DNA of 64,000 nucleotides. Origin: Isoetes taiwanensis. Taxonomy: Eukaryota > Streptophyta > Lycopodiopsida > Isoetales > Isoetaceae. The notes under the pieces are model-generated. The model searched no databases. It was not told where the DNA came from and saw only the letters and a program-made list of their open reading frames with translations. A program made the position numbers and the translations under genes. Shown here piece by piece: positions 2,741 to 50,632 of this stretch; the first letter of the stretch is position 1, and the number at the start of each line of letters is the position of its first letter. Location: contig JAJEKV010000058.1 of NCBI GenBank assembly GCA_021234155.1, positions 5,714,600 to 5,778,599 of the forward strand, given 5' to 3'.

Positions 2741-4611
2741 TTAAATAATTACTATGCACTATGTGCACCGCATTGCTTGTGATAGGTCTCAACAAATTTA
2801 TCAAAAACACAAAGTTTTACTTTGTTAAACCGGTTCTTCCTTTGCATATTTGTAATTCATGTATAGATAATTAAAGTCAAAAGCTTTTACATGTTTGCAT
2901 GGTTCTTACCCTAATGAAGTTCTTGAACAAGATATGGATTCTTTATTTGAAGTTATTTTAATTTCTTCCTTTGTTTCACGTAATATGTCGAAGTTACATA
3001 CGAGAACAACAATAAGGTCCTCTATGAAAAAATTGCTGCCAAAAGAAGTCAACTTGCCTTAGCGCGGGTTCTCAATCAAGGAAGCGATGTTGCATCCATT
3101 CCCGCACGCGCCGAAGCTCAATAATCTGAAGGAGAATGTCTCAGCACTGGCTTTGCTCCTTTCCCATGAGGATATGGAGGGGAATGAGGGGGTTGTACCT
3201 CATGATCTTGTTGTTGGTGAGATATATGGTGATGCATTCATGTCATCAACATGGAGACATGGAAGTACACCACCACTTTCTGTTTGACAATGTGTTGAAA
3301 AGTGAAGTCATAGCTACATAAGAATGAGCATCAGAGTCTGACCCACGTATGACCAACGTATAATGCGGAGCACATGGAGTAAGCTTGACCTAATCACATA
3401 ATACCCAAGAATTTGCCCACAATAGAGAAATCTGATATTAACCAGCATGCAATGAATGTTGTGAAAGAAATTCTCTGCCATAATTTCTAACGCTATGGTT
3501 TAGAAACTGAAGCAGGAATTTGTCAGAAAGTTTGTTTTCAGGAGAAAGCTCTACATGGTAGGACCAGAGAGGATAGATTTCAACTAGTGTTCAAGGTTCA
3601 GTTGGCATAGCTCTTGGGTGCTACAAATCCAGAGAAATATATGTTGGAGTATTTGGCTGCAACGGATTGCTGTATTCATTCCTACTTTTTCAAAATTCTA
3701 TAAGCATCTATCTATGATTGTGCTCTATACGGTTCAAAGGATATCTAATTGTTGTTATACTTTCGCCCACAGGATACTCTTTTCCTCTTAGTATTATGCA
3801 TCAATGCAATTATGATATTGATCTAGGTAAAATAACATGTTCATACTTGATTTATCTTCAATTGATTTGTATATTTGCAAAATGGAGGAGAAGCAGAAAA
3901 ATCATCACATTTCCTTGGATCTAGATCTTGAGTATACTTGGCATATGGTTCCATTTCTCACTCATTATAATATCTTCTTGAGCAATATTCAATGTCTTCT
4001 CACCCAAATCCGTTGTTTTCCCTATTCCTCTGTTAGGAGCCAAGCTTCCTTTTGAGCCACCAGATTGAACCAACCCTGAGATCTCAGAACTCGCCAGAAT
4101 TCTTGTCGCAGCATAGCATAGCATGAACAATCTCGCAATATAGCATGAATAGGGCAGAGGACGCTTGTTCTTTAGAATCTGGCTGCACATGAAGGGGCGC
4201 GATGGCGCCAGATTGGTGAGCCCCTGAAGGCCTGCGATGGCAAAATAAGCTATAGAAGCTTCTTCCTACTGCCCGCCATCGCCAACAGCTAGGCGTCTGG
4301 TTCTACCAAGAGATGGAGCAAAAGAAATAAAACATGGCATGTCAATAAACCCCAGCGAGACCATGGCAGCGGATTTCATAAAAAAGTAAAATACAGATGA
4401 TTGAGGATGGGGAGAAAATAACAATTTTTTTGTAGGCGGACGAAAAAAAGGAAACTAGTTTATATATGTTCAGACAGAAATATACTATGGTTATGGCATA
4501 ATTTTTTATTATTGTCAGTACTTTAGCTAAGGGGATGCTTGATGATCCCCTATGTTGTATGACGTATTATTTGCCAGGGGAGATGTTGGGTGATATCTCC
4601 TTTTTTTTTTG

Positions 4612-5160
4612 TCTTCTCCCTTTCTTTGAGGGAGAGAGTGTTGAATTTGATATGTTTGTTTAGGTGTGTCGGAGTTTTGGTGCATGGGTTTTGAGCTCTC
4701 TTTCTTTTTTTTTTTTTCTTTTGTGTTGGGGATGAGGGAGAAAGGCGGGATTGGATTTGATGTGTTTACTCTCTTTTGAACTCACTCTTTTCGAACTCTG
4801 CGCTATCGCTTTCGAACTCTCTAGCCTCGATTTCGGCTTCTCTGCAATCTACGCTATTCTCGATTCTCGGCTTTCGGCTTCTTTCTGCTATTGCAACCGG
4901 GCTATTCAAATTCTCGGCTTCTTCTTGGCTTCTATTGTAAATTTCGATTTCTATTTCAAATCTCTCTGGGGAGAGGAATATCATTTGCTAATTAGTTAAT
5001 TTCTCTCGTTCTAGTGCATTACACATGGTGATTCTCGTTCAACTATACTTCCTTTGGGCGACAATCAACGGCTGGACCCTATACAAGATACTACTAAATT
5101 GTGTTGTTCAAAACCTACAAAGAGAGGTGGACAAGGCATACAAAGAGAGGTGGACAAGCT
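4612..5160 (+). other. Pyrimidine-rich leader and start of an unknown truncated gene
   Basis: A tract rich in TCTCGGCTTCT-like pyrimidine repeats precedes an ATG near 5,025. Copy 2 keeps the frame better: from 61,022 it reads MADSRSTILPLDDNQRWTLY and continues about 25 more codons before running into the tail of the opposite-strand gene. A very similar pyrimidine-rich tract lies upstream of the second gene in element B (47.5-48.3 kb), so this looks like the leader of an element gene cut off by rearrangement. The product is unknown. In copy 1 the second codon has lost a base at a CTG. Confidence 0.35.
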
Positions 5161-5268
5161 TGGGATATTTTGAAGGGTGCTTTTGATTGCTTTAGTCACT
5201 TGAGTCGGTCGTAGCTCAAGTTGGGCTTGACAAAGGTGACACCACTGAACGTCACTTCACGTTTATTG

Positions 5269-7377
5269 TTACATAGTCGACATATCTTGGAATTCTTTGA
5301 TATTTCTTTTGCTCTCCCATCCTTGTTCTTCATAAGCCCCAAGGGAAACATGGGAGCTCTCTTGTATCTGGCTCTGACTGTACAAACAGTTTGGCAAATG
5401 CGCTGATCTGAGGAACATGACTATGTGGTACACTTTTGCTTGTGTCATGCCTGCAACTCTGCTAAAAAAATCTGTATATTTTTTTACATCCCACAGCGTC
5501 GTAAAACTACGCATGTCAACGAAAATCATGGTTGCATTTTCTGACACCGGTGCAGACACAAGGATGCCAGTTTTTGTGACGTGCTGCACGGTGTTTTTCT
5601 TCTCTTTCATTTTTTTGGCTTCTTCTGGCCTCATTATAGCAATAATAGCTTCCAAAAAAACTGTTGAAAGATTACCTTGAACTGCTTCTTTATTATAGTT
5701 CGCTTTAATATATTCAAAATCTGTGTCTGCTATATCCAGGAGTCGTTGTTCAGACAGCTCTGGAAAACATGAAGCCATCTCTTCAAAATTCTTGTATTGC
5801 TTATCTGAAACAGAATTGGCATATGATAACACTTCACGACGCATGAGTGAAAGTGTTCTGATGTCTAAAGCCCTCTGACGGCAATCAAAACGTCCTGCAT
5901 ATCCTTGCTGCACTTTCAAAAAAACTTTGCCCTGTAAGATTTCGTCCATCAATTGGCTTACCTCAGCATTGTTCATTCCTCGTAGGTTTCTTAGGAACGT
6001 CTTGTTGAAAAACTCCTTTGACGGTTTCTCTGGTAATTCCCCCTGATCCTCAGTTAGCTTTCGAGCTGCCCATTTATTGACAACATCTACGAGCTTAGAC
6101 CATGATTCTTCTTGCATAAATAGGAACTGCTTTTCATCCTTAAGTTCCTTAACCTTCAAGGTTGTGGTAGCCACCTCGACAAAATCCTGTACAGAAGTGC
6201 TGGTTAGGATCACGACAGTGATTTTCCTGAACAAAAAAACGAAAAACATACCTTCCACGCGGATGTCACTGCAGTTCCTGTTGGCCCTTGTGGAGGACAT
6301 CCGAATGCCTTGTGCTGGTTTCTTAGTTGTTGGAGCTTTTCAATGAGTGGTTCTTTGTATACTGTTTCTGCGATTACATCGTTGCACTGTATAGAAATCT
6401 GAATGTATTCCTTGTTGGAGAGGTTCCCATTTAACACACGACTTCTTCTTTTTGCATATGCTTTCGCAAATTCCAGTCTTTGTTCGACATTACCCATGTA
6501 AGTGCATAGAAACTGTGCAGCAAAGATGCTGTGATTTCCAGAAATAATAAAGAATTTCTTGTTCAACAGTTCTTCAGGGCGGGACCAAGTGACTAATTTC
6601 CTGCATGGACAGCATATTGATATAAAACCAATAATACAAGCGAGAAATGAATATGATATAACTGACCTTGTTACTGGATCGAATGGAATGACATCAGCAG
6701 GTGTAAGAACCTCCGTTGGATATTTTTTGAAGCTCTTTATCAGGGTCTGGACATGGTCATTCGAGCGAACTCTATGTGTCATATTTGCGGGAGCTGGCTC
6801 GCAATCGAAAATACTGACCTTCTGGAACCAGTTTACATCCATTGGGTAATACCTTTTGAACTCTTCGAGTTTAGAGGCTGTCTCCTGAGCGAGTTTCTTT
6901 TCTTCATCTGGATTAAACTTTAATTCTTCGGGCACTCGCGCAGCAGTTGGCCAGGTCAACATACAGCTAGTAGCTGTTGGTATGGTGGACGAGGAAGGAG
7001 TAGAAGATGTCGAAGGTTGCGCACTGTCATCCGTGTTCAGCTTTGGAAGCTTGATTTTGAATGTCCTTATCTTCTTTGCTGGCTGTTCTTCTATTGCCTC
7101 AGAGTCTCTGGCGGGAGGTGGCATAAGCGCAACCGGTGAAGGGGTTCGACAACGGCGGGAACAACCAATATTTCTTTGGGGATAACCTCCATGGGGAGTA
7201 CAGTATCCTTTGAAGTGGATGGTTAAGCCTATAGCGCCCGGAGGGGCCACGGATCTCTTCTTGGCAGCGGCTCACGAGCCGGTTGGTGTCCATTCTTGAA
7301 GGCAATTTGTTGTCCTTAGTAGCCTTCAAAGCGGCCGAAGGAGGTTTCTTATCCATGAAAAGACCCTTTACGCACAT
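5269..7377 (-). pseudogene. ParB-like / methyltransferase-like mobile-element protein (copy 1), disrupted
   Basis: The gene reads right to left. Its N-terminal part is basic and low complexity (PAKKIRTFKIKLPKLN near 7,050), plausibly a nuclear localisation region. Next comes a ParB/sulfiredoxin-type domain: a stretch beginning MTHRVRSNDHVQTLIKSF, then, after a 66-nt intron at 6,601-6,666, the signature FFIISGNHSIFAAQ, which matches the ParB G-x-[HR]-[RS] loop. A 65-nt intron at 6,187-6,251 (GTATGT...TGTACAG) joins in phase to a helical middle region with LRGMNNAEVSQLMDEI. The C-terminal part (IFVDMRSFTTLWDVKKY and onwards) sits where an amino-methyltransferase core would be, but its motifs are poor. 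The reading frame is broken near the N-terminus and the end. Palindrome clusters lie upstream at 7.78-8.31 kb. The ParB call is solid; the methyltransferase call rests on the family A relative. Confidence 0.7.
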
Positions 7378-8823: not shown

Positions 8824-9599
8824 TACCACATGCACACCTTCTTTGTGTCGGATTAAATCAAATCCGTTTTAATTTGGGAATGAAGATTGCCTCTCTTAAC
8901 AAGTCTGAGATGTTCTTGTTCTTAGGCGTTGATGTGATTCATCTTCCCTCGATGCGGTTCATCCTTACGGCACAACTAGTAGTCGTCCAGGATCATGAAG
9001 GCGATCTTCGCAACATATTCTAGACTAAGGTACCTATAAATGCTGCGGATGTAACTAGCGGTTGCACGCAAATAGACACTTGTCTTATTGACTCGGGTCT
9101 TAACACATGTCTTCTTTAGGGCGTCGACACAACCCACAGGGGTGCTCACCCGGTCAGCGGTCGCGATCACCGCTAACTCTTGAGTCTTGCTTGAAGGAGG
9201 TTTATCACGTGGCTTCTAACAAGATTGCGTATTAAGCGAGGGTAAATCATCGAAACAAGAGCAAAAGGAATATTCCTTAAAGATTCTTTTTTTTTACAAA
9301 AAGGGGTAAAATGAGGTAAAAAAAGTTGCATGAAATTCACCCAAATGACAAGTTTTTTTTTGTGGAGCGAAAAGAATTGACTTTTTTAAAGTGACACTTT
9401 TCTTAGCAAATAGAATGTTCTTGAAGTATGTTTTTGAGAGAAACTCTAATTTCAAAGGATAAAATGTTTAACAAAAATTGAAGTAAAGTCACGTAAGCGT
9501 CTTTGTAGTATTCTCAAAATTTGAAGATAAAATCTTCATATTCACATGCAAAATTCTGATCTTTTTCTAAGACTTCGGTTATGTGCAAAAGTATGAGGA

Positions 9600-12500
9600 G
9601 TGATGAAGGAGGGATCGAGCGTCATCATATTCTCATCTCCTTCACTTCTTTCCTTTTGTCACTCGAGGAAGTACTTGAGTTGTCTTCCTCATCACTATCA
9701 ACGAATTTTGAAGCATTGCCACCACCACTCCCTTCTTTATCCTCTTCCTTGTAATTACAAGCCTTTTAAAGCAAATTGATAGTTTTTAAAGCGGGGCGAT
9801 TTATGCGATTTCAATTTGAAATCATAGCATAATATAGTCACATCACTCAAGTTCAGCTCATCCCTACAACCCACTTTCTTAGACTTCCTCCCTTTTCCTT
9901 GACTTCTGATTTCTAATTCATACCTACCTTCAAAAGCATTTTACGAGCGTGTTGCCCGGCCGATTGAATCTTGAGTTTAGTTACTAAGCCTTCCTCCTCT
10001 CATTCCCTCGTCTTGGTCCAAGGTACATGACTCGGTCCTCGTCTTCCCTCTCTGCGGTGCTAATGTAGCATTGCTTGGACTGCCGTTGAAGCGTGACTTG
10101 GTTGATGGAAGGTATCGAGGGCCATTGAAATGGTTCTTGCAAGCTGTCTTAGAGCCGGGTTTTGCAAGGCGACTTTTTGGTCAAGAAAGAAATTTGTCCT
10201 GCAGCTTGATCTTCTTAGAAGTACTTAAAGCCGAGGAAATGCCATTTTCAATGGCTTTTAGGGATGTCAATGGGGTACTTTTTCTTTGCTTGGACTCCTT
10301 AGGATTTTTGAGAGGAAGTTGCTCGAAGACGCTCTCTGAGGCAATAGTGCGGAACAAATTTAAGGAAGTGCAATCCCTACGATGGACTCAATCCTTAGTT
10401 GTGGTGTACGTCTTCCCACGTAAGAAGCTTTGTCCATCCTTCAAGTAGAACTTGATGTGATGTTGAAAGGTAAGATCATTCATTTTGTTCCTGACTAGCT
10501 CTCTATCGAGCGTTGAGGAAAAACAAACTCTCTAAAGTCTGCTGGTCTCTTTAAGATGCTTTCGACCCTTTGGAGCAGGAGTGTAAGAATCTTCAATGAT
10601 TCGAACTAAAGTAGGAAGACAAAAAGCTTTCTTCCTTCTAAAGGCGCCTGAGAAAATCCTGCTGAACATCGGTCAATCGATCATGGGTGTGCCCTACAAG
10701 CAAAAAATCGAGCTTTACTTTTACGAAGATCCTTAGCTCCACTAGCATAGCACAATAAGCAAAGAGTGTTTGATTCTTGTTCTCTCTTGTAGTATTGTCA
10801 AGTTGCAAGTAAAGCACGGGTGGTAGTTGCTCTTGCTCGCACATGACCTTGTTAAGGATTGTAATTGTTAGGTTTGGGTCACCATGCAAGTTTGGATCGT
10901 CAAAATACTTTGCACTTTAAACTTCCTTTGAAGACCATGGCCCACAAGGTGGACTTTAACAAAACATTTCTCGGCACATCTTTTGGAATATTTAGGAAAT
11001 GGGGTAGAGTTGTCTTTTTCGATCCATTCCATCAATTACAATAGACATGTATTGCAATGGGCGTTTGAGTGCTTTTTACGTGCTTGGCGAGCTTTCTTCT
11101 CTCTTTGCTTGTTGTTCACGATGTCACGGCAAGATTTTGTTGCACAATATCGTAAAAAGAAATCGAGGTTAAAAAATTTCTTCAAAGCAAGTGATAGGAT
11201 GGAGGACATGAGCTTACTTCTTTTCGACCCTCTGTCTTTTGCGGTTTTCGTTGACTTTTTTAATTTGGCATCTTGAGCAAGCGGACATTCTATGTCTTCT
11301 TGGAATTTTCACAAGGCCAAATTCACTTTTCCACGGTCTCGTGAAGTGTGACTAAGAGATGTCTTTGGCCGAATGCATGTCTCTTTGTATTCTTTGAAGG
11401 CGTCCTTTTTGTAATATTATGCGTGAGATGATACATGTTCTTATTAGGCAACTTCTCACATGTCTCTCTAAAATATTTCTCCATCCATGTGCGATGGCGG
11501 GGCATGCATAGTTACAACTCTTCTTGGACCCACAGTGATCATCAATTCTTTGGGTTTTGTCGATCTTTTGTGTATTGAGACATTCTTGTGGACCCTAAGC
11601 GGTGGACAACCATGAAGCATTTTTGGCGGACTTGTTCACGGTTAATATAGTGCAAGAAGGTGTTGCGGTGCGGTCTTACATGATAAGCTAAGTAGGCATT
11701 ACAGTGCGCCAATGTCATTGAAGCGTAGTTGTCTCTAAGCGCTTTCGTAATTTGGCCATGTTAAATCTGTTGATGCAACCCAATGAGCAGCACTTAGTTC
11801 TCAGGAGTTTTCTCATTTTGTGTTCATCCATAAGGTTTCTTCTTCTTACAGAGGAGCATGCTCTCAAACCAAAATTCACCTTGAATTTCTTTGAAGATTG
11901 GCTGGAGAACATGTAATCTCGTTGTTCCTTGTTGGTGTCTTCATCTTCTGATGAAACTTCTACTCTAGGGGTGGTGTGTTTGTAGAGGAAAACAGACCAT
12001 CCCGAAAAAGACGGTAGCACAGTGTTAAAGGATGGTGATGGCCCATAAGATGTTGTGGCATCAACTGTTCTTGTACCATCCTGAAAAGGAGTTCTTGCAA
12101 ACATCTCCTTTAAATGATTTGGAATTCGCAAATCCATGTATCACAATCGTTGTGTGAAGAGGAGTACATGCTGCAGCATCGTCCTCATTTGTAGTGAAGT
12201 CCTGGTGAGAGAAATTGTAGTGAATCTCACAGTCTTCTATGTTTTCTGTGTTCCTTGTATGTTTGCATGAAGGGGGCGAAACTACAAATGGGAGGGATAG
12301 CTTGTTCTTGAGCAGCCATTGTTGTGGAGCATCTGTAGGTCTGGGGGATGGAACGAAGGGTGGTGGCAGCATGCTCGAACTTGTGGTGATGCTTTGGAAG
12401 GAGATGCCGGTAATCTTGTCTCTTTGGACTTGGTGACGGTTGGAAGGATGGTGGAAGTCTGTTACGTGCTGGACTCGGTGTGTCTTCGACAAGCAACAAC

Positions 12501-12634
12501 GATGAAGTAGAGGTCGTAGTCGGAGAATGCAGATCTTCGGAAGAAATGACGTTGTTCCCAAGCGTGTCTTCAGAACTAGATGAGCTTGAGACAACAAAAG
12601 GTGGTGGAAGTTAGTTCGCGAAGCGGTTCGTCAT
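9600..12634 (-). pseudogene. Family A DDE-type transposase, copy 1, disrupted
   Basis: This is the relative of the better preserved copy at 37.8-51.2 kb and starts at an ATG at 12,634. Recognisable pieces are a Ser/Thr-rich N-terminus (12.1-12.6 kb), a Cys-rich region with LMDEHKMRKLLRTKCC (about 11.8 kb), and the catalytic-type blocks LQLDNTTRENKNQTLFAYC and FLLVGHTHD near 10,690-10,810. The DN and GHTHD blocks are those of the RNase H-like transposases often annotated as DUF7869-type proteins. The frame is interrupted many times. Most interruptions coincide with places where copy 2 has CAG or CTG, so the true state could be better than it looks. Without such correction it is a pseudogene. 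Confidence 0.7.
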
Positions 12635-13046
12635 CTTAACAAGCGCAAAAGCGATTGTAGAGATTTGAGAAACTTTCTCTAGTGCGAGCTTTTCTTATTC
12701 CGAATACCGCCCACATAGTACAAGTAGAAGTTCTGTACCAATTAAGTGAAAGGCAAACTAAAAGCTATTCCAGAATACACTGGAGTAGGACAGTAAAGCT
12801 AAACGTATTCCACTTCACATAGAATACGAGCAAGACGAAATGGATACCTTTAAAAGGAAATTTTGAAACCGGTTGCATATTCAGGTCTCGAGCTCAAATT
12901 CATGGCGCCCTTGGCCCTCGAATATAATATTCGGAGGCGTATTCGGTCGCATATAGAAGACATGGACGGTGAGCAACAAAGTACAGCGTACAATCATTTT
13001 AAGTCTGTTTCTTATTAGAATAGGTTTTGCCTTTAGGTGTGTAAGA

Positions 13047-13152
13047 CAAAGTGTATTCAGGAATACACTTTGGCTTACCTTGAAGACAAAGTGTATACGG
13101 AATACACTTTAACAATCAGCGTGAAAGCGAAAGTGTATTCGGAATACACTTT
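13047..13152. repeat. Palindrome array A1 between the divergent genes (copy 1)
   Basis: Three AAAGTGTATTC...GAATACACTTT palindromes at about 13,047-13,072, 13,087-13,110 and 13,130-13,152 sit between the transposase start (12,634) and the ParB-like gene start (13,376). A looser copy (TATTACGGAATA) lies at 13,319. Copy 2 shows the intact form with CCGG at the centre; here the centre is CAGG, ACGG or CGG. Confidence 0.85.
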
Positions 13153-13375
13153 CAGCCTTCACACGCGTGTGTTTAGGTTTTGAAAGGTCAATTCTTCGAA
13201 TTGTTTTCGTGAATTTTAGGCGTTTTTCATTTGTTTAGACTTGTTTAGCCTTGTTTTTCTCAAAGGCGGTGTTGTTTTGGCCTTTTGACCACTTTTATCA
13301 TTTTCTTTAGACATCTTGTATTACGGAATAGTTTTATGCGGTGTTTTCTCTAAAAAGTCGTGTTTACACACAATA

Positions 13376-16300
13376 ATGCGAGGCAAGAAGGCAGCAAGAA
13401 ACAACGGAAGAAGACCATCAAATTCTCTCGGAAAAGCACCCACAGGAGAAGGGTTGGCGATCTTCTTGAACACGCAATTTACGAGAACTTTCAAACTCAA
13501 TGGTTCTTCCACGGTACAATTTGGAAAATACTGACACCCTTACTTTCTTACATGTGCGGTTGAGTCCTGGTACAAAAAGGTATGATGACGGAGAATTTGT
13601 CTGCATGGAAGCTATATACAATTTGTGAGTGAAATAATTTGGGGAGTCAGAACAACGAGGGAGACTATCATTTCAGACATCCCAAGGTTTCATTCATGTT
13701 GATGAAGCCTTTTTTTTAGAATGGTCAAAGTAAACCCAGGCACTTTACAAGTATGTTTCCCACTACATCAACAAAGCTCGGTGCCATAATCAGCGGCGTT
13801 CGAAGCACCACAGGCGAAGACTTTGCCCCTGGCCGAGTCAAAGCGGGGAGAAGAGGAAGAACAACCGGACCGGCAGTCCATCAAGGTGGCGGCGATCCAT
13901 CGAGGATCGATGAAGCGACCACCATCACCACCACCAAAGAAGCGGAGGCTAACCGTTGCTGATAAAGAGCCTAAAAAGATAAAGCGACTTTAATTGCAGC
14001 GAAGATGCTCGAGGAAGCACCCAAGAAGAGGAAAGCGGAAGGGCAAAGCACACTGGTGTTGCCATTAAAAGAAAAGAAAGGTTGATAAAACATCGGAGAA
14101 GATGGAAGAGATTAGCTTTGCACAAGTTTGTGCAAGGTGTCATTACTTGCCCGTCACATCAATGAAGCTTCCTCAAAAATGAAGGCTGGAGAAACGACCC
14201 GCTGCGGGTTCGAAAAATATATGCAAATCATCTAAGGAACCTCAAGGGCCGAATTGAACAATCAAATGCCCATGTTGCTCCCATTGTGGTTCTTGTTGAT
14301 AAAAGCGATTGCTCAAGTCTGCAGTACGATATAGAAAAATGCGGACACATATCGCATTATGTTTTGGATGGGAACCACAGCTTCAAGGCAAGGAGGCAAT
14401 TGTACAAAGAAAAAAAGAATCCTAGGTACTTATCTGTTCTTTGTGCAGTCTATTGTGGTTTGACCGACGAAGAAGCCAAAATCATTGCCAACACTCACAA
14501 CGCTGACAACGAGTACAAGTAAAAAATGAGCTTTGTCGACAAAATTAGATTTATGCACAGAGAATATATCATTTTCAAGGAAAAGTACGGGGAGGATTTG
14601 AAAAAGCCACAGTACTCACTTGAACTTAAAAAGCTTGTGCCATTGAGTGTTGCCTTAAATGACGAAAAGGCGAACAAGCGAGGCGTCACTCATTGGTCAT
14701 GACAACTGGTTTTCAGCTAAGCGTTTAGGGATGGCCGGGTACGTTACAAGCGTATTCCAGAATAAGATTTAATGTACAACTAGCTGATGAGTTTCTTATT
14801 TTGTTTGCGGATACGGGAGCTCCAAAGCGAAATATTTAATATGTTTGAGCATGGTGAACTGAAAATTAAGGGCAAGGTCACCGGAGAAGAAAGCGGAAGC
14901 GTGCCAAAAAAAAAATGACTATCAGCATGCGGAGGGAGATCTGAGAGGTTTTGCGACCACGAGTTACTAGAAGCGGCTCTGCGAGAAGGTGGTGGACAAG
15001 GAGTTCACACTAGAAGAAATGTCGAAGGAGTTGCACAAGTAAGCATTACCATCATTCTTTGCCTTTTCATTTCTAGAATTCTACAAGAACCTCAAAATAA
15101 AAGCAATCGAAGGGTACTCACGAAAATGCTTCTTCTCCCCCTCGAGGGATGAAAGTGTATTCAGAATACACCTTTGCGCCGTTAGTGTAAAAGTGTATTC
15201 AGAATACACTTTCAATCCCAGCAATATTACGGAATACACTCTTACTTAGTGCGTTGTAGAAGTGTCTTCGGAATACACTTTTCGCTCATTCACTGCCGAT
15301 GAAAGTGTATTACGGAATATCTTCTTACAACAACAAAAATGTTGTCTAAGGCACTTGTATTCTAGAATAAGTTTACATGGCGGGGAAGATTGTTTAATTT
15401 ACTTTTGCACTTTCCAAGCTGCTAAAAGCGGTTTGTGGTTTTCTTTCAAGATAAAAAATGTCATCACACTGCGGGACATGTCGATGAGCAACTTAACGTG
15501 GAGATGTGGGAGGTGCAAGGAGCTTTATCCCATTGCTACATCCGGCGGCGTATTGTTCGATGCGCTCCAAATTTTTGAAAAGGATGGATGCGGCTGATTA
15601 AACACATCATACTTGACTTGTCTCTGTCTCAATCTCTCCTTTGTTTTGCGAGAACAAGAAGAAAAATAAGGACACCGGAAGGTTTCATGCACCTCGTGAG
15701 GCAGCACGAGAAAGAAGAACATTGGCGGATAGGAGGACTCTAGAAGTGGAGCCTTACGATTATGAAAAGTTTAGTTTATCTGACCAAAACAATTTGTTTT
15801 CTATCATCCCAGGGATGCACTAAAGCTGGTTTGGAGCGGTAAAGCCCACGAGGATTTTTACGGTGGTCATAAGCGGACCTTCCTTATGGCTTTAAACTAA
15901 AGAGCGACCATTCGACGATTAGCCTTTTTAAAAATTGAGTTTAGCGCTTTTGTCGTGACATTAAACAAGTCCAGCGGCCAAAACCACTGGCGTCTTGTCA
16001 TGTTTCATTCGAGCATGCAATCGGCCTTGTGGAGTCCACGTTCAAAAATCATTCCGGATCATTGCAAAAACTGGTTTGAAATTTGGTTTAGTAAGTAACT
16101 TATTCCGGAATACGTTGTGTTTGTTTCTTCTTTGTGTTTTCGTTTTCTATTCCAGAATATGATTGCCTTTGACTTGTTCTCTTTGTTTGTTTCTTGTTCT
16201 GTTTTCGTTAGTGACACGACTCTAATTTCTATAGGTACAAGACAAATATAAACTACCATGGCGGCCGAGGTTGCTGAGTAAAGTTGAATACCTCCATGTT

Positions 16301-16665
16301 GCTTACTGGAGTTTCGATGGCAAATGCACCATGGAGCATTTTAAACTTTGACATGCGAACTTTTTCTAATGTTTTGGAATTTCCAGCTGTGCTTCAGAAG
16401 CTACAAGACCCTAGTGCACAAGGTAGAATTGTTAATCACTACCAGAATCCTCAAAAGCTAATCAACCATCTTCTAGACATGTTTTCCGTCGGAGATTGGG
16501 TGCTTGATGCCAACACGGCTCACGGTACAACAATAGGTTGTGCACTAAGAAGGGGAATTGTGTAGCAGTGGACATAGATAAAGAAGCTGTGAACTTCATC
16601 AAGATGAGACTGGCTGCCTTGCCTACCCTACGGATGAGCACCAAGGTTAGGTGCGGATCCTCATC
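13376..16665 (+). pseudogene. Family A ParB-like / amino-methyltransferase-like protein, disrupted
   Basis: The first ATG opens MRGKKAARNNGRRPSNSLGK. Basic nuclear-signal-like segments follow (PPPKKRRLTV-like near 13,940 and KKRKVDK near 14,070). A clear ParB/sulfiredoxin domain spans about 14,205-14,700: the segment ending APIVVLVDKSD, then HYVLDGNHSFKARRQL and LTDEEAKIIANTHN, in the order found in ParB N-terminal domains. Towards the end (16,430-16,640), KLINHLLDMFSVGDWVLDAN followed by GTTIGCALRRG and CVAVDIDKEAVNFIKMRL match motif I and the following strand of N4/N6 amino-methyltransferases (usual form VLDPF-x-GSGTT). I found no DPPY motif. Exons are separated by non-coding sequence that includes the second palindrome array. 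The frame is broken in several places. The ParB assignment is firm and the methyltransferase one good; activity is unlikely as read. Confidence 0.75.
15152..15320. repeat. Palindrome array A2 inside the ParB/methyltransferase-like gene
   Basis: Five GTGTATTC/GAATACAC palindromes or fragments at about 15,152, 15,189, 15,224, 15,259 and 15,302 lie between the ParB-coding and methyltransferase-like coding parts. Isolated TATTCCxGAATA sites also occur near 12,768, 14,750, 15,357, 16,102 and 16,150. Element C has its own array in the equivalent position, after the ParB part. Confidence 0.8.
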
Positions 16666-17649
16666 GATTTTCCAAAGCTGACCTCTTAGGAGATCTGACC
16701 TCCATTCACTGACTCCTTAGATGATGAAGCTACCTTTGCGAGAGGCTGAAAGAAGTGGCACTAGCTACCATTCACGAAGACAACTGCAGTAGTAGACAAA
16801 GGGTAAGGCACAAAGAAAGGATCGGACTTCTGAGAATCGGCACATCAGAAACAAGCAAAAGAATGATGAAGACTACGATTTGGACCTTTAGTGTCTTCTA
16901 CCAAAAATTTATTACTCACCTTCATGTGTTGTTACAAAATGATGTCATTGAAACACTTTAATTATATAATGATTATTTTATTCACTACATTACGGTGTTT
17001 TCAAGAAAATACTTTTAGAGAATACAAAAGCATGTCTAAATTCTTCCCTTTTCAAGTCTTTGCTTTTGGCAAAATCCAAGTTCTTTTTGCACTAAGGGCC
17101 AAAAAGGAGTAAAAAAAATTAAGCCTATTGGAATTCCCAATTAGAAGGAAAAAAGTGTCATTTTCTAGGCGGGGTTTTTGTTTTTTCAAGGGAATCTTTG
17201 AAGCGGGGAGTCTTTGCAACACTTCCGTTTAATTTTACAATCATGTTTTACGCTTTTTGAGGCGAGCGAGAAAGTGCTACACAATTAACATCGTAGTGGC
17301 ATTTTCTCTAAGCACTAATGACCTTTACGCTTGCTGCGGCATGGCTCAAAGTCCATACTATTTTGAGTCAAAGTCAAAGAGGGAAAAGTACATAACCGAC
17401 AAAAGCACTATAACTTGCCCTTCTTAGGAAGATAGCATAGTAGTGTATATGGAAGTTCGGGGTAGTGTTACGCACATTACGTCTGAGGATGTCAGGAACT
17501 ACAAAGGTAAAATTTAGATAAAATGCATTCTAAAGGTGTATAGGCACAAAAAGCTTGGGGTCGTCGGCCCGACTTGGATAATGATCTCGATAGGGGGCAT
17601 TATTAGTAACTGCAGAAATCACGGACAAGATAGGAACTTGGGTATGCCA

Positions 17650-37293: not shown

Positions 37294-37754
37294 TAACAAG
37301 ATTGCGTATTAAACGGAAGCAAATCATCGAAACGAGAGCAAAAGGAATATTCCTAAAAGATTCCTTTTTTTTACAAAAAAGGGGGTAAAATGAGGTAAAA
37401 AAAAATTTGCATGAAATTCAATTTTGACCCCCCTTAAATGACTAGTTTTTTTGTGGAACGAAAGAATTGACTTTTTTAAAGTGACACTTTTCAGAGCAAA
37501 TAGAATGTTCTTGAGTATGTTTTTAGAGAGAAACTCTAATTTCGAAGGATAAAATATTTAACAAAAAATTGAAGTAAAGTCTGTAACCGATACTGTAGTA
37601 TTCTCAAAATTTGAAGATAAAATCTTCATATTCACATGCAAAATTTACAGTCTTTTTCTAAGACTCAGTTATGTGCAAAAGTGTGAGGAGTGATGAAGGA
37701 GGGATCCAGGACGTCATCATGTTCATTTATGCCATCCTCATCTCCTTCTCAGAG

Positions 37755-39727
37755 TCAGTCACTCCAGTCAATCCATAGATCGTGGGACGGATAGGGTGGG
37801 CCCAAACTTCTTTCACTGTCACTTGAGGAAGTGCTTGAGTTGTCTTCCTCATCACTATCAACAGATGGTGAAGCATTGCCACCACCACTCCCTTCTTCAT
37901 CCTCTTCCTCGTAATTACAAGCCTTTTTAAGCAAATTAACAGTTTTTTGGCACAGACGATTGTCTGATTTCAATTTGAAATCATAGCATAATATAGTCAC
38001 ATCATTCAAGTTCAGCTCATCCCTACAACCCACTTTCTTAGACTTCCTCCCTTTTCCTTGACTTCTCATTTCTAACTCATACCTACCTTCAAAAGCATTT
38101 TCTGAACGTGTCACCAGCCAGTGAATCTTGAGTTTAGTTATTAAGCCTTCCTCCTTGACTGTATCAAGAACTTTTGCTATCCAAAAGGGTCGACCTTTGT
38201 CATCTTCCTCAGTTGGAAGAGCAATCAGCATACCTTTGGCAATTTCTGTGATATTGCCTTGAGGCTCATTCCTACGTCTTGGTCCAAGGTACATGACTCA
38301 GTCCTCGTCTTCCTCTGCTGCAGGTGCCACTGTAGCATTGCTTGGACCTGTTTGATTCTGGGGTTGATGGAAGGTATCAGGCCATTGAAACGGTTCTTGC
38401 AACTGTCTTAGAGCTAGATTTTGCAAGACCTCTTTCTGGTCAAGAAAGAAATTTCTCCACCACATTTGATCTTCTTCTGAGAAGTACTTGAAGCCCGAGG
38501 AAATGCCATTTTCAATGGCTTTTAAGGATGTCAATGGGGTACTTTTCTTCTGCTTGGACTCCTTAGGATTTTTGAGAGGAAGTTGCTCAGCACGCTCTAT
38601 GAGGCAATGGTCTGGAACAAATTTAAGGAAGTGCAATCCCTCTGCTGGACTCCAATCCTTAGTTGTGGCGTACTTCTTCCCCTGTAAGAAGCGTTGTCCA
38701 TCCTTCAAGTAGAACTTGATGTGATGTTGAAAGGTAAGATTCAACTTGTTCACAGCCAGTTCTCTATCTGAACGTTGAGGAAAAACAAACTCTCTAAAGT
38801 CTGCAGTCTCTTTAAGAAGCTCGACCACTGGAATAGGAGTGTAAGAATCTTCAATGACTCGAACTAAAGTAGGAAGACAAAAAGCTTTCTTCCTTCTGAG
38901 GCGCACAGAAAATCTGCTGAACATCTGGTCAATCTGATCATGGGTGTGCCCTTACAAGTAAAAATCCGAGCTTTACTTTTCTGAAGATCCTTAGCTCCAC
39001 TAGCATAGCACAATAAGCAAAGAGTGTTTGATTCTTGTTCTCTCTTGTAGTGTTGTCAAGTTGCAAGTAGAGCACAGGTGGTAGTTGCTCTTGCTCGCAC
39101 AGGACCTTATTAAGGATTGTAATTGTCAGGTTTGGGTCACCATGCAAGTTTGGATACGTCAAAAATACTTTACACTTTAGACTTCCTTTAAAGACCATGG
39201 CTCCTACAAGGTGGACTTTAACAAAACATTCCTCTGGCACATCTTTTGGAATATTTAGAAAATGGGGTAGAGTTGTCTTTTTTTGATCCATTCCATCAAT
39301 TACAATGGACATATATTGCAGTGGACGTTCGAGAGCTTTTTTTCTGTGTTTGGCGAGCTTTCTTCTCTCTGCTGCTTGTTGTTCACGATGTCTGGCAAGA
39401 TTCTGTTGCACAATGTCTGTAAAAGAAATCAGGTTAAAAATTTTTCTTCAAAGCAAGTGATAGGATGGAGGACATGAGCTTATTTCTTTCGACCTCTGTC
39501 TTTGCAGTTTCTCGTTGACTTTTTAATTCTGCACATCTTGAGCAAACAGACATTCTGTGTCTCCTTGGAATTTTCACAAGGCCAAATTCACTTTTCCACA
39601 GTCTGGTGAAGTGTGAGTAAGAGATGTGCTGAAACTGAATGCATGTCTCTTTGTATTCTTTGAAGACGTCTTTTTTTGTAATGTTGTCTGTGAGATGATA
39701 CATGTTGCTATTAGGCAACTTCTCACA
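37755..39727 (-). pseudogene. Family A transposase, catalytic and C-terminal part (copy 2)
   Basis: The plan, in coding order: Cys pairs (CSRCAELK, near 39,540), catalytic-type block 1 IVIDGMDQKKTTLPHF (39,255-39,305), block 2 LQLDNTTRENKNQTLFAYC (39,010-39,065) and block 3 GHTHDQIDQMF (about 38,915-38,950, across a one-base frame change). This D / DN / H-D pattern is that of an RNase H-like DDE transposase of the DUF7869 type. A long tail follows to a TGA at about 38,296. Directly beyond it MYLGPRRRNEPQ opens a further 179-codon frame with FWIAKVLDTVKEEGLITKLK, KIHWLV and an acidic end, resembling the reader-like (BAH/chromo-type) tail of element B's transposase. Copy 1 has CGA instead of TGA, so the two frames were probably one protein. 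The N-terminal portion lies beyond the Helitron. Confidence 0.75.
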
Positions 39728-42700
39728 TCTACTTATTTAAAAAGTTTTTGGGGTGTCTTGCTGATGCCGGTGTGCCCTTTTTTCCGGCGTTACATTGGAA
39801 GAAAAAACGATTTTCCGGCATTGTTTTCGCCTTTCCGGCTCCTTCCCCTCCCGTTACTATTTTGCCCCCAAAAAACCGTCGTTCTTGATTGTTCTACTGT
39901 GTGTAGCAGAGGAGCGGATAGACCGTTTCAGTCCTCTCGCAATATGATTCTGGGCGGACGGTGACTTCATGGAGGACGGAACCAGACTAAGGAGCATCGA
40001 GCCATTTTTTGCAGATATCTAAACCATTTTGATGGTTTGAGATTTTTGTTTTTGATGTTCTACAATGAGGTTCGGTTTTGTTTATCTATGCAATCTTTTA
40101 GATTCGTTTAAATGAGTTTTTGTTGATCTGAGTTCTATTTTTACCACAGATGAAGTGAAGCATGCACCAGATTCTTTGGCTTCAGTTATTCTATTTATAC
40201 AGCTATCACGGTAGGAGCAAGAGGAGCCGGCATGCAATTATGGGGCCGTTGAGATTTCTCTGCTGCCAATCCGTTTATTTTTTCCTTTCTCCACTTATAG
40301 AAAACGATGCCGAGGTCGCAACACAAAGCTTTCAATCTGAAACTCCGTATCTCCATTTTCCAAAGCTTTTACAGCCAGCCATTTGATTCTGGAAGACCCT
40401 GGAGCAGGAATATTGCATGCAGCACCTGGGATTTTGGTTAGTATGCAGTAGCATTGATGCCTGGTTATGGCGGACGAACTTGCATACAGAAGAATCCGTG
40501 GCTGGTATTGACTCCATTAGTACGAAAATACATGCTGCAGAACTGTTCCTATTTTGGTATCTTATTTTTGGGTTCTTTGGTTTAGACTAAACCGCCTTTC
40601 CAAGTTTGCAAATCACATTCGGGGTAAACTCTTTATGGTTTCTTAAATCTCTATTTTGCAGAAATCCAACTCTATTTTGCAGAACATCTGATTTTGTATG
40701 TAGGTAAGTTTTCGTACTATTTTGCAGGCATTCATGACAGATTTCTGGCAACTGACCGATCTAAAATTGTGGGAGAAATCTGGCTGATGGTAGTGGCAAC
40801 TTTCAAAATTTAAGCTCCTTTCGACACAAAGCACTTTGGTTCCAGGTATAATTTTCCTTGCATACAAGGGATGCTCTTTTATGTTTTCTCATTCTGATTC
40901 TGTTCTTTTGAAATGCTTAGCCCTTGCAATATGCCATGATTAACATTTGCTTGCTGGAGAAGGACGTTTTTAAGTCTAGGGTTCAGGTAAAATATGCTCA
41001 ATGTATCTCTTGCTATTTTAATTTCTATAAATGTTTGATCTGAATAAATCTTTAATTGTTTCCAGAAACATTTACTTAGCTGACCATATTTTGGGTGCAT
41101 AGATCCATTTTTCGTCAGCCATTCAAGCCTCTTTGCATTTGTTTGAGTAATGCTTAGATTTCTTTTGCCATTGAAGGTTTGCTTTCTGATCTTTTTCCTT
41201 TAAATTCATTACCACGATTCTGTAAATTTTTTGGCAATTCTGGATGCTAATCCACCTGTATTTATGCTCTTCATACTAAAATACGATCCAGAGACAAATC
41301 TTTGGAGAGAGTCGATTTCCCAATTCTAACATTAACTCTGATCCATTTCCAAATTCTAACTTTTGTTGTTTTATGCATATGTATAAGTGTAGTTACCATC
41401 GTTTTCGACATTGTTCTATTGTAGGAATCTTATATTTCAAGTTTTGAGAACCAACAATAATGTCGTTTTTGCATTCCTTACAGAAAGAACATTTGTCTAC
41501 TTTTCATGCAAGGTGCATAAGATGATTTAATCATGTGTTGTTTTTTTATGATGTTGTTGTAATGTGTAGGTTCTCGAAAGCTATGGAATGGAGCAAGAAT
41601 TTTCCTTTCCAGATGTTCGTTGGTACTGTTTTGAAGATCCTTTTAAAGCAAAGGTATATGTATTTGTTTTACATCCTTATTCAAAACAAATTTAAGTAGG
41701 AACAGGTTCATTGCTCATGCTAGCCCTATTTGTGAGTCCTTTGATGCCAATGTTTCTAATTACTGGAGTCAATGAGGAGCACCAAAAGCAGAATCCAATT
41801 TCTGGTCTGTGCAGTGTAGTACTTAGGAAATCTTATTATTATGCATATATAGGTCTCCACGTATAAAAATGTAGAAATTAGCTAGATAGAAGTTGAACAA
41901 TTGTTTGTGGCCATAAAACTCCCTTGGTTTTCTGTACTGCCATTTCCTTCGTTAATATTAGAACTATGAGCATAAAATCTACGATCTGATTGTATGCCAG
42001 ATGTCTTAAAATTGTGTGAACTTCCATGCGAAGAAATAGGCATTGTCCATTATGTTGATGACTGAACACTGTATTGAAAAACAAATTCATTGAAGAAGGT
42101 AGTAAAGAGAAATTGGACGTAAGAAGTTGTTGATAAACTGCCATTTCACAATTATTGTTTCATTGCCAGTTGAGGAAGATCTTTTACTACAATAATCTTT
42201 TGCAATCATGTTTTACATCCCTTATAATTCTACAACTTATTTACAAGAAAGGAATGATTGGTTCTACTTTTTTTTTTTTAAAGGGTAATAGATCTATGGT
42301 TTATAACCACTGGAGGATGAAATTTTTTCCATCTATAAGTTTGTTCCTATAAAGAAATGTAGTTGCAAGTTAAAGCTTAGAGCACCCCCTGCATTTAGAG
42401 CATCCATTCCCTATATGCCTATGTACCTTTTCTTGGCACAATGTTTTAAACATGAAAAAAGCAGGCCCTAAATTTTAATGTAAACATACATGTTGGGATG
42501 AAAGTTGTGCATGTATCTTATGGACTTTTGAGGATGTTATCTTTATGATCATAAATAAAGTTGCACCTCATTATGGTGTAATTGCCAAGTTCGAAATAAA
42601 ACTTATGCTCAGGGCACCACTTAATTTATGCTCATATCTAAAAGTTTGAGGAAGTTGATCATGAGTCCATTCTTACCAATGTCAACATGCATTGTTGTTG

Positions 42701-42777
42701 AAGTTGCACATATGAAAGGCCGGGCAAAAACACATCCCAGAACATTAGCCCGGCAACGGTGGGCACCCGTTTACTAG
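39728..42777. mobile_element. Helitron, non-autonomous, 3,050 bp
   Basis: The insertion is exact: copy 1 has CTCACA|TGTCTC at 11,455-11,466, while copy 2 has CTCACA|TCTACTTATT at the left and TTTACTAG|TGTCTC at the right. The insert therefore begins TCTACT, ends CTAG, sits between A and T and has no target duplication, all defining Helitron features. Fifteen bases before the CTAG end's ACCCGTTTA lies GCCC-GGCAACGGT-GGGC, a degenerate form of the terminal hairpin. No Rep/helicase frame is present. Confidence 0.9.
41570..41653 (+). other. Exon-like fragment captured by the Helitron
   Basis: An 84-nt open block is bounded by TGTAG on the left and GTATAT on the right, as a spliced exon would be. 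It reads VLESYGMEQEFSFPDVRWYC followed by FEDPFKAK. Surrounding sequence looks intronic. Plant Helitrons commonly carry such gene pieces. I do not recognise the parent gene. Confidence 0.5.
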
Positions 42778-43796
42778 TGTCTCTCTAAAATATTTCTCCA
42801 TCCATGTAACAGCAGCCAGGGCATGCATAGTTACAACTCTTCTTGGTCCACAGTGATCATCAATTGCTGGGTTTTTGTCCAGTCTTTTGTGTATTCGAGA
42901 CATTCTTGTGGACCCTGGTCGGTGGACAACCATGAAGCATTTTTGGCAGACTTGTTCACGGTTAATGTAGTGCAAGAAGGTGTTGCGGTCTGGTCTTACA
43001 TGATAAGCTAAGTAGGCATTCTGGTCTGCCAATGTCATTGAACTATAGTTGTCTCTAACTGCTCGTAGTTTGGCCATGTTAAATCTGTTGATGCAACCCA
43101 ATAAGCAGCATTTAGTTCTCAGGAGTCTTCTCATTTTGTGTTCATCCATAAGGTTTCTTCTTCTTACAGAGGAGCATGCTCTCAAACTAAAATCCACCTT
43201 GAATTTCTTTGAAGATTGGCTGGAGAACATGTAATCTCCTTGTTCCTCGTTGGTGTCATCATCTTCTGATGAAACTTCTACTCTAGGGGTAATCTCCTCT
43301 GTCCTGATTGGTGTATTTGTAGAGGAAAACAGACCACGTGAAGTTGTTCCCAGAAAAGGCGGTAGTACAGTGTTAAAGGATGGTGATGGCCCATAAGAGG
43401 TTGTGGCATCAGCTGTTCTTGTACCATCTTGAAAAGGAGTTCTTGCAAACATCTCCTTTAGAGCGGACTGGAATTCTGCAAATCCATGTGTCACAACCGT
43501 TGTGTGAAGAGAAGTGCATGCTGCAGCATCGTCCTCATTTGTAGTGAAGTCCTGGTGAGAGAAATTGTAGTGAACCTCACAGTCTTTTGTGTTTTCTGTG
43601 TTCCTTGTATGTTTGCACGAAGGGGGCAAAACTACAAAAGGGGGGGTAGCTTGTTCTTGAGCACCCGTTGTTGTGGAGCATCTGTAGGTCCGGGGGATGG
43701 AACGAAGGGTGGTGGCCGCATGCTTCGAACTGGTGGTGATGCCTTGGAAGGAGATCCCAGTGTCATGTCTACTGGACTTGGTGACGGTTGGAAGGG
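42778..43796 (-). pseudogene. Family A transposase, N-terminal middle part (copy 2)
   Basis: This is the segment between the Helitron and element B. It contains a Ser/Thr-rich stretch, LMDEHKMRRLLRTKCC, GCINRFNMAKLR, CQKCFMVV and CGPRRVVTMHALAAVTWMEK; the Cys pairs may form a zinc-binding domain of the kind found ahead of the DDE core. The frame is open for about 335 codons, then is cut by the Helitron directly after MEKYFRET, where the downstream piece resumes with CEKLPNSNMYHL. Confidence 0.75.
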
Positions 43797-44049
43797 TGGT
43801 AACCATCATTCAATTAAATTGGGATTATGTCTTAATTTTGGGATAAATTTTATATTGCACTTTTTTAGTAACTTTGTTAAATTCACTTTTTAGTATCTTT
43901 GTTGCCCTTAGACTAGAATAGACGTTAACATATAATCATACACGGGAATATAAATTCACACCTTAACTTCAAATTACAAATTCATATATCATGAAACTCA
44001 AGTAGTACACAACTTTTATTAAAAGTGATTGATACATAGTAACTGTTTA

Positions 44050-47019: not shown

Positions 47020-47519
47020 GCCATTGACCTAGAATGCATAAAAATATATAGTAAGTTAGCATATCCAAATAACCTCTAACTAACATGTTCATAAATGAAA
47101 GCCTCGTATGTCTTATTCTATTTGATCATTCTATTTATATAATGGGATTCCCCAAGTTATTTTCCTCAACATTATATAAAAATAAAACCCTCTACTTATA
47201 ACCTTCAAACTTGTATCCTATAATAACCTTAGAAATAACTTTTAAGGTTATTATAGGTTTGCAGTTTTAAGGTTAAGAAGTTTATTATAGGTTAGAAAAT
47301 TTAAGGTTGGAAAGTTATTGTAGGTTAAAAGTTTTAAGTTTAGAAGTCTAACTCATGAACTTTCAACCTTATAACTTAACTATTAACTTAAAACTATTTT
47401 AAAAACTTATAAGTCATAACTTTTAAACTTAATAACCCTTAAAACAATTGTCCTTAAAACAATTAACCCTTGTAATAAATTTTCGCGGAAGTTATAATGG
47501 CGCGGTACGAAATTTTAGA

Positions 47520-48300
47520 AGCAGTTATTATTTCAAGTTAGCCTTCCTTTTCAAACTTTTCTCTCACGCTTTCGAACATTAGCGCTTCTGCTTCCAATTT
47601 CGGCATTCCAGGCGCTTCTGATTCCAATTTCGGCTTTCTCGACTTCTATCTGCTTCTCGGCATCATCAATCTACCTTCAATCTATCTTCTCTGCTTTCTG
47701 GGCATCAATCTATCTGCTGCATGACCTAAGGAATCAATCTATCTGCTGCATGACCTAAGGAATCGTCAATCTATCTTTCTCGGCTTCAATCTGCTTCCGA
47801 GCTTTTATCTGTTTTCGAGCTTTCGAGCTTTTATCTGTTTTTAAGCGCTTTCGAGCTTTTATCTGTTTTTATCTGTTTCTGCTTTTGGGTTTTCGGCTTC
47901 TATCTGCTTCTCGGCTTCTATCTGCAGCAATCTCGACTTCTATCTGCTTCTCGGCTTCTATCTGCATCAATCTCGACTTCTATCGCTTCTAGGCTTCTAT
48001 CGCTTTAGGGTTTTTTTTCTCAAAGGTTTTTTTAGCTCAAAGGTTTGTAGGCTCTATACAAATCGCGGTTTTTGGGTTTCGGCTCTCTACAATCTCTCTG
48101 ACTTTGAATAACTTTGGTTTTTTGTGTTAAAGCTTCTCGGCTTCTCGGCTTCTCGGCTTTTTCTCGGCTTCTTAAGGCTAAAATCATCTGCTATTGGCTT
48201 CTCGAATCAAATCAACTTTGATTTTCGATCTTTTGGTTTCGGCTAGAAGGCAAAGGCTCAATTCTCGGGTACAGAACACAAATAGGTTAGTATTTCCTGT
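47520..48300 (+). promoter_or_regulatory. Pyrimidine-rich region between the divergent genes of element B
   Basis: Repeated TCGGCTTCTATCTGC-type pyrimidine blocks fill this interval, including a 29-bp tandem duplication at 47,704-47,763 (ATCAATCTATCTGCTGCATG and onwards). A similar tract precedes the truncated gene at 4.6-5.0 kb and 60.6-61.0 kb, so it may be a conserved leader or promoter region of this element class. GGCTCTATACAAATCGCG occurs at 48,049 and, in near-identical form, at 48,821. Confidence 0.5.
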
Positions 48301-48429
48301 TATATACATAAAGTAGTTATTTTACATAAAGCAGTTCCTCACAGGATTGGTTCTGTGATCTTGCCTATATGATCTGCTCTTATTCTATTTCACTAGGTCT
48401 TCCTCTATCTGTTCTAATTAATGATCTAA

Positions 48430-48560
48430 AATAATGAAGTAAATAATGATCTATGATCTATCTGCTCTATGATCTATGATCTATCTGCTCTATGATCTAT
48501 GATCTATCTGCTGTATGATCTATCTGCTGTATGATCTATCTGCTGATTCTCCTGTATCTG
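48430..48560. repeat. Microsatellite-like ATGATCTATCTGCT repeats
   Basis: Short units ATGATCTATG and ATCTATCTGCTNT alternate for about 115 bp upstream of the FCP1-like gene. The unit ATCTATCTGCT is also frequent in the pyrimidine-rich region, so the array probably grew from it. Confidence 0.7.
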
Positions 48561-48826
48561 CTCTTATTATATTTCACTAGCTCTTCCTCTATCTGCTCTA
48601 AATAATGAACTAAAACAATGAACTAAATTTTGAACTAAACAAGGACTATTATTATTATATATCTGCTCTAACTGGCTTCATATTTTGAATTCTGCATTCT
48701 GCATTCTGTTAGAATAATATGTTGGAATGGGAGAAATCGCGATTGGCGCATTTCTATTTTTGGGTTACGTTTTTCCACTAGATTAATCAAAGCTCGGCTC
48801 GGCTTTTCTTTTCATACGGCTCTATA

Positions 48827-50068: not shown

Positions 50069-50357
50069 GAAAATCGTTCTAGAAAGAGAACTTTTTTGAT
50101 ATATATGTATACAGGAAATACACTTTCCAAAAAGTTTTGAATATGAAATATACTTTACACGAAAGGTTTAGAATTTATATTGTGTTCTTATATCAGCATT
50201 ATTGGTTCTGTGTACGTATTGTTTTTTTATATTATGTGTATGGTTTGCTATACTTGCAATAATTTGTATGTATATACCGTCAATAATTTAGGTGTGTATA
50301 AATAGGCATGCATGAAATTGGCAAACCATAAACCCGGTCTCATATACGCTTGTTATT

Positions 50358-50588: not shown

Positions 50589-50632
50589 TTTTTTAAGTTT
50601 ATGTTCTATTATAATGCCTTATTTATGCCAAG

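Follow-up and report, generated by a model that had tools for sequence, protein, structure and literature searches.

The window analysed here, a stretch of 64,000 nucleotides from Isoetes taiwanensis (contig JAJEKV010000058.1, positions 5,714,600 to 5,778,599), contains a decayed copy of a DNA transposon of about 8.2 kb in which a DUF7869 transposase gene faces an accessory gene for a likely ParB-like domain joined to a predicted DNA amino-methyltransferase. The copy occupies positions 9218-17247 and extends beyond the segment at 13376-16665 in which a preliminary description had recognized the accessory gene. Four divergent families of the element (A, to which the window copy belongs, and B, C and D) coexist in the genome, and the families differ in a palindrome that is repeated in arrays in their noncoding DNA. 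These family-specific arrays are the most informative feature of the element. On balance, it is probable that the accessory protein binds and methylates the palindromes of its own family and in this way marks its own copies, perhaps against silencing; both binding and methylation are inferred here.

Six copies elsewhere in the genome (L017 to L022), picked for closely spaced ParB and methyltransferase matches, align along the window element by blastn. With their help the window copy can be laid out as follows, palindromes being given without a strand.

9218-17247, plus strand (orientation of the ParB-methyltransferase gene): transposon copy, decayed, by blastn against the six other copies, the right end by alignment to L022
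9218-9242, plus: left terminal inverted repeat, 3 mismatches against the repeat of L017
9560-12634, minus: decayed transposase gene with its exons and introns; the limits are approximate and come from blastn to L017-L022, the frames of L019 and L021, and the start codon as read
10641-10916, minus: DUF7869 transposase, partial domain (Pfam PF25273, E 5.1e-29)
12766-13330: palindromes between the divergent genes, 12-mers at 12766, 13054 and 13319
13383-14738, plus: exon E1, with N-terminal domain, lysine-rich linker and ParB-like domain (tblastn 2e-115)
14166-14519, plus: longest intact ParB-like frame (DUF6551, E 3.4e-4, below the Pfam cut-off)
14753-14764: palindrome in intron 1
14811-15039, plus: exon E2, in two frames (tblastn)
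15225-15319: palindromes in intron 2, at 15225 and 15308, both one mismatch away from the core
15454-15543, plus: exon E3, Cys motif, partial in the window copy (tblastn)
15653-16061, plus: exon E4, methyltransferase motif IV region, frameshifted (tblastn)
16101-16159: palindromes in intron 4, at 16101 and 16148
16236-16873, plus: decayed exon E5, with the motif I region of the methyltransferase and the tail (tblastn)
17223-17247, minus: right terminal inverted repeat, degenerate, by alignment end and letters read

Palindrome arrays in four transposon families

In their better-kept copies, the ParB region of families B (L026, L027), C (L029, L030, L031, L034) and D (L032, L033) shows about 46-53% identity to that of family A. 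When the k-mers of seven family A copies were compared with those of another 43.6 kb, letters repeated around the palindrome AGTGTATTCCGGAATACACT stood out; TATTCNNGAATA was counted 82 times in the seven copies and never in the other 43.6 kb. The palindromes of families B, C and D are GGTATGAATTCATACC, CGGTATAAATTTATACCG and GTCTATGCGCGCATAGAC, respectively, so that the central hexamers read TCCGGA in A, GAATTC in B, AAATTT in C and GCGCGC in D. Written on the dyad, the half-sites of A to D are GTGTATTCC, (C)GGTATGAA, CGGTATAAA and GTCTATGCG. All four share TAT at positions -6 to -4, with a nearly invariant A at -5 in half-site logos conditioned on the core, and differ in the inner three bases. 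The exact 12-mer cores are exclusive to their families, save for one C core in each of the two B loci.

When up to one mismatch in 12 is allowed, 14 loci contain 211 sites (78 in A, 14 in B, 91 in C, 28 in D), none of which falls within an exon of either gene as mapped by tblastn; being repeats, the sites are not independent of one another. All 78 sites of family A are deep within the element, either in introns or between the two genes, and none is in the terminal repeats; in family D, some sites are near the ends of the fetched stretches, where the element ends are unmapped. Genome-wide (1,658,258,908 bases, 1110 contigs), counts of the 14-mer palindrome against its reversed letters are 3720 vs 0 for A, 1551 vs 0 for D, 12556 vs 17 for C and 64 vs 11 for B, which has the weakest excess. 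The most frequent palindromic 12-mer reaches 5 to 15 copies in the five loci tested, compared with at most one copy of any palindromic 12-mer in loci shuffled as single bases and in three other stretches of the window. The innermost C of the family A palindrome is T in 24% of half-sites, which matches the decay of methylated CpG and hints that the host methylates family A copies.

Five further copies were chosen solely by ParB identity to a family D query, and their arrays were predicted before the sequences were fetched. The prediction was clear in three of the five, the D-clade copies L043, L044 and L045, which carry GCGCGC arrays of 10, 14 and 14 sites, none of them in mapped exons. Separately, L043 contains a second palindrome, CATTCTAGAATG, at 6596, 6953 and 7605, which may belong to a nested element.

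The transposon and its accessory gene

Both 25-bp terminal inverted repeats (AACA...TGTT) are present in four of the six comparison copies, L017, L019, L020 and L021, which measure 8153, 8274, 8189 and 8393 bp and are flanked by the 4-bp target duplications GGTT, AATA, TAAG and GCTA, respectively, as read from the flanks. L018 and L022 matched the right repeat alone, their left ends being unmatched. In the related family C, L029 has the ends AACA...TGTT with ACTT duplicated on either side. The right repeat of the window copy was missed by a repeat scan allowing 5 mismatches, and this copy has not kept its target duplication, the flanks reading TTCT and TTAC. The available text of PMC10741241 describes Sola elements as having 4-bp target duplications and as present in a moss, and those of PMC12633428 and PMC3985635 group Sola with RNase H-like transposases. 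The 4-bp duplication of this superfamily is found in L017, L019, L020, L021 and L029; by this feature and by the algal precedent discussed below, the element is Sola1-like, and the Sola1 label is plausible. The element is very abundant in the genome, where its copies probably number in the thousands.

A DUF7869 transposase on the strand opposite the accessory gene, as first described from the window, recurs in L020 (E 5e-52, minus strand). The D-bearing stretches DGMDQKK, LDN and HTHDQID are common to copies of families A to D. DUF7869 is unmentioned in the literature searched, most subscription papers lying outside that search.

The accessory gene, on the plus strand, is divided into five exons. 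Their limits, derived from L020, agree with GT-AG splice signals and give a stop-free reading in L018, which bears out the introns proposed for the gene. As read, its protein has 945 residues and comprises an N-terminal part, a lysine-rich linker, the ParB-like domain, a Cys motif and the amino-methyltransferase; the lysine-rich stretches noted earlier are present as the linker in E1. The motifs picked out at first sight are likewise where they had been placed: APIVVL, VLDGNHSFKARRQL and LTDEEAKIIANTHN all lie in the frame at 14166-14522, and VGDWVLDAN and GTTIGCALRRG in the frame at 16278-16565. The window copy itself is dead: the E1 alignment contains 11 stops, the later exons are frameshifted, and motif I reads DANTAHGTT vs DAFSGSGTT in intact copies. 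The N-terminal part (13383-13800 in the window) matches no Pfam family when the L018 protein is used. In L008, L010 and L017-L022 no conserved ATG was seen where the E1 frame begins, and a further upstream exon was not found; a short upstream exon with the first codons is likely.

The ParB-like and methyltransferase parts belong to one gene. First-look candidates for ParB, methyltransferase and DUF7869 numbered 2362, 1881 and 9907, and the best 150 of each were scored, so that the pairing counts are lower bounds. A methyltransferase place lies 1.8-2.7 kb downstream on the same strand for 40 of the 150 best ParB places, and for 0 of 150 in the control arrangements (on the other strand, or upstream). 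Similarly, 22 of the 150 best ParB places have a DUF7869 place 2.8-4.6 kb upstream on the other strand, against 0 for both control arrangements; starting from the methyltransferase, 15 of the 150 best places pair with DUF7869 vs 1 on the wrong strand. The fixed spacing and strand, together with four copies within one repeat pair and target duplication, rule out two unrelated neighbouring insertions. Bacterial or phage contamination is ruled out by the introns, the many genomic copies (150/150 scored places) and the lack of any close relative in searches of phages, plasmids, viral contigs and, for the ParB part, bacterial contigs.

The association also appears from the transposase side. Nine DUF7869 loci were taken blind to ParB, four being the best of the list and five lying further down; by tblastn, a ParB exon is present in 8 and methyltransferase exons in 7. 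In L030, ParB is present and no methyltransferase exon was found within the 10 kb fetched. A DUF7869 element without the accessory gene was sought as a control, and the sole locus of the nine free of a ParB exon, L028, is broken by another insertion and provides no clean control. The insertion in L028 contains at 3564-5396 a long frame that by eye is reverse transcriptase-like (YADD), and the accessory gene is absent from the stretch fetched.

Selection was estimated as the ratio of nonsynonymous to synonymous substitution rates (dN/dS) by the Nei-Gojobori method, using family A copies that are stop-free in the tested stretch and dropping pairs that are saturated or have dS <=0.05. The median ratio is 0.03 both in the ParB region (12 copies, 36/66 pairs) and in the E5 core (5 copies, 9/10 pairs), where the median dS values of 1.2 and 2.1, respectively, are near saturation. 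It is 0.10 in E4 (6 copies, 3/15 pairs), 0.17 in the N-terminal part (34/55 pairs) and 0.22 in the C-terminal tail (17/21 pairs); the value for DUF7869 is based on one pair. The ParB-like domain and the methyltransferase are under strong purifying selection, and the accessory protein seems to have been kept functional during the spread of family A.

Identity of the two domains

The preliminary description had called the protein a fusion of ParB and an amino-methyltransferase, and the two halves of that claim differ in strength. That the C-terminal half is a beta-class amino-methyltransferase is certain on sequence grounds. It matches N6_N4_Mtase at 3.1e-18, with 67 bits vs a curated cut-off of 26.7 (the window methyltransferase exon alone gives E 0.13), CcrM at 3.7e-11 over residues 51-296 of E4+E5, with 6pbd as best match in the PDB, and the phage methyltransferase family phrog_67 at 2.1e-27. 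Like CcrM and other beta-class enzymes, it has motif IV before motif I and GSGTT in motif I, which reads DAFSGSGTT in intact copies; unlike them, it has D(L/I)PYGF in place of DPPY and is fused to a ParB-like domain. Of the 14 loci outside the window in which E4 letters were read, 13 have DLPYGF or DIPYGF as motif IV, the other, L032, being decayed. According to the available text of PMC8885841, DPPY is linked to N6-adenine enzymes and SPPY to N4-cytosine enzymes, and the domain alone is no proof of methylation activity. By this rule, and with a motif IV that starts with D, adenine is the more likely predicted target.

Relatives of the methyltransferase, sought in viral contigs, phages and plasmids, are distant: three viral contigs show 32-34% identity over 57-64 residues, and phages and plasmids stay below 60% identity, the top-ranked phage and plasmid matches being at 28.5% and 29.0%. 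Plasmid methyltransferases were rejected as the source of the ParB fusion. Four of the best matches are single genes of 265-368 codons in which the match begins within 27 codons of the gene start, leaving no ParB part, and a profile search with PF02195 gave no match in two of these records.

The ParB-like domain is likely, on evidence that is weak and concordant and stays below family cut-offs. It matches the ParB family TIGR03764 at 1.8e-4 (21.2 bits, the cut-off being 143.75), DUF6551 at 3.4e-4, also below its cut-off, phrog_30771 (of no known function) at 9e-4 and the ParB-like phrog_723 at 0.32. PF02195 (ParB_N) gave no match in a whole-genome profile search, which can miss weak matches. 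Among plasmid records at E <=10, 10 of 12 are annotated as ParB family protein at the match, each alone having E 0.6 or worse. In a profile-profile comparison, five copies from families A to D matched four plasmid ParB proteins with a probability of 80.6% (P 1.3e-5, 107 columns), and a control with the methyltransferase profile gave 1.4%; because the same domain had served as the query that picked the four plasmid proteins, the test is not fully independent. The likeness to the ParB family of integrative and conjugative elements and plasmids (TIGR03764) is thus a weak collinear match over these 107 columns, far below the family cut-off, and no ParA gene was noticed in the element. Across five family members, three match DUF6551 at 0.0087 or worse, alongside a chance-like hit to an IgA protease domain at 0.0024, and two match TIGR03764 at 4.3e-4 or worse, alongside a radical SAM family at 0.0068. 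Searched against the PDB, the ParB part returned unrelated proteins only (Na/K-ATPase beta, E 0.15; DHFR-TS, 0.011), and the predicted fold of the window ParB frame alone is uninformative (predicted local distance difference test score, pLDDT, 38). No close relative of the ParB part was found in phages, nor in viral or bacterial contigs searched with two short peptide patterns each. In two Pseudomonas plasmid loci, L041 (105-995, 1282-3015) and L042 (177-1067, 1354-3087), an adenine methylase gene lies near a weakly similar ParB family gene.

Proposed self-marking and its alternatives

The pairing of ParB and methyltransferase in algal transposons is already known, although the preliminary description was aware of no account of it. 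PMC12477816 (2025), as far as its available text goes, reports in the 21.5-kb Sola1-1_Ec32 element of the brown alga Ectocarpus a 1104-residue protein with ParB-like and DNA amino-methyltransferase (N4C or N6A) domains, encoded on the strand opposite the transposase. Similar proteins are cited there from transposons of green and red algae (Iyer 2011; Bostrychia, Petroll 2025), with the suggestion that these proteins bind to the transposon encoding them and modify it. The Isoetes element shares, as far as the description goes, the domain pairing and the strand arrangement, and differs in its length of about 8.2 kb and its land-plant host; palindrome arrays and selection are not mentioned in the available text of PMC12477816. 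No report was found of such elements in a land plant or with family-specific palindrome arrays, in a search that left most subscription papers outside. The additions made here are the land-plant host, the four divergent coexisting families and, above all, the family-matched palindrome arrays, and they turn the published suggestion into a testable model.

A second point of comparison is offered by the VANDAL transposons, which are of the Mutator-like element (MULE) type and encode VANC; VANC is not known to contain a methyltransferase. In the available texts of PMC5735166 and PMC10398659, VANC of Arabidopsis VANDAL21 and VANDAL6 recognizes short motifs specific to each family, which are repeated in tandem within introns and upstream noncoding DNA, and causes loss of DNA methylation on its targets. 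The Isoetes families resemble this system in that a transposon-encoded protein goes together with family-specific motif arrays in introns and upstream noncoding DNA, and in that motif and protein change together between families; arrays of this kind are found in the Isoetes copies with the exceptions of L028 and L046. The protein is a different one, and VANC motifs, in the same texts, are not palindromes.

In the proposed model, a dimer of the ParB-like protein would bind the palindromes of its own family, and the fused methyltransferase would modify the bound palindromes, the adenine of TAT (position -5) being the candidate base; adenine is favoured because motif IV begins with D and A is nearly invariant at -5. 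The methyl mark would then separate the transposon's own copies from other DNA and keep them expressed or mobile, and such self-recognition could counter silencing in the manner of the sequence-specific anti-silencing by VANC. A more elaborate form of this proposal, which is tentative and rather doubtful, is a private modification code: the ParB-methyltransferase of each family would read and write N6-methyladenine at an 18-bp palindrome peculiar to that family, in which TAT...ATA stays constant and the central hexamer is switchable, shielding the family from host silencing, and reader and site would have diverged together, giving no fewer than four matched pairs within this genome. If self-marking is true, the families would constitute a natural set of DNA-binding methyltransferases differing in specificity. 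The proposal bears on two open questions, the breadth of DNA amino-methylation in land plants and the escape of transposons from silencing; with four families each providing a protein and a candidate site, and a genome for which PMC8566536 reports native Nanopore sequencing of ligation libraries on v9.4.1 flow cells, self-marking is directly testable.

Several observations weigh against self-marking by the ParB-methyltransferase. The ParB-like domain is over no cut-off, weak matches to unrelated families stand alongside it, and the fold of the window frame is of no use. In motif IV, L or I replaces the first P of DPPY, so that the (D/N/S)PPY pattern is not found. L020, a family A copy whose frames are mostly open, lacks the exact TCCGGA core and carries 7 sites with a C/T centre variant. 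Among the five further copies, L046 (decayed, with no transposase matched) has no array; L047, a family A relative, has the exact core once and six one-mismatch sites, so that the prediction held only with a mismatch allowed (six of its seven sites are outside mapped exons, and one, at 3781, is inside the transposase gene region where no exon matched); and no new central hexamer appeared. Finally, the arrays also vary in step with the transposase, which could itself be the reader.

This last point leads to the strongest rival, which is nevertheless unlikely: that the palindromes are bound by the transposase and the accessory protein has its role elsewhere. Families with different arrays differ in their transposase as well, and internal or subterminal repeats are bound by many transposases; set against this, all 78 mapped family A sites are well inside the element, and a perfect dyad would fit binding by a ParB-type dimer or a site that is methylated symmetrically. 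There is a smaller chance that the arrays bind a host factor, or are promoter or splicing elements spread by local duplication, with the ParB-methyltransferase unrelated to them. Their position in the shared upstream region and introns would suit such a role, as would the 42 bp spacing of many family A sites, which looks as if it came from slippage or unequal exchange. A host factor, however, would be expected to favour a single motif, whereas the centre differs completely between families of one host and only TAT at -6 to -4 is constant. Smaller still is the probability that a methyl mark acts on transposition rather than silencing, through timing by hemimethylation in the way that Dam controls IS10; the motif order is that of bacterial DNA amino-methyltransferases, but 0 of the 78 family A sites are in the terminal repeats. 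Self-marking of the transposon's own copies by the accessory protein is the favoured reading.

The window also contains a second family A copy, in which no ParB-methyltransferase exon follows the palindrome array by blastn.

37295-51868, plus: second family A copy, interrupted by insertions at about 39.7-42.8 kb and 43.8-51.0 kb, its match stopping in its own palindrome array
51284-51860: palindrome array of this copy, 9 sites

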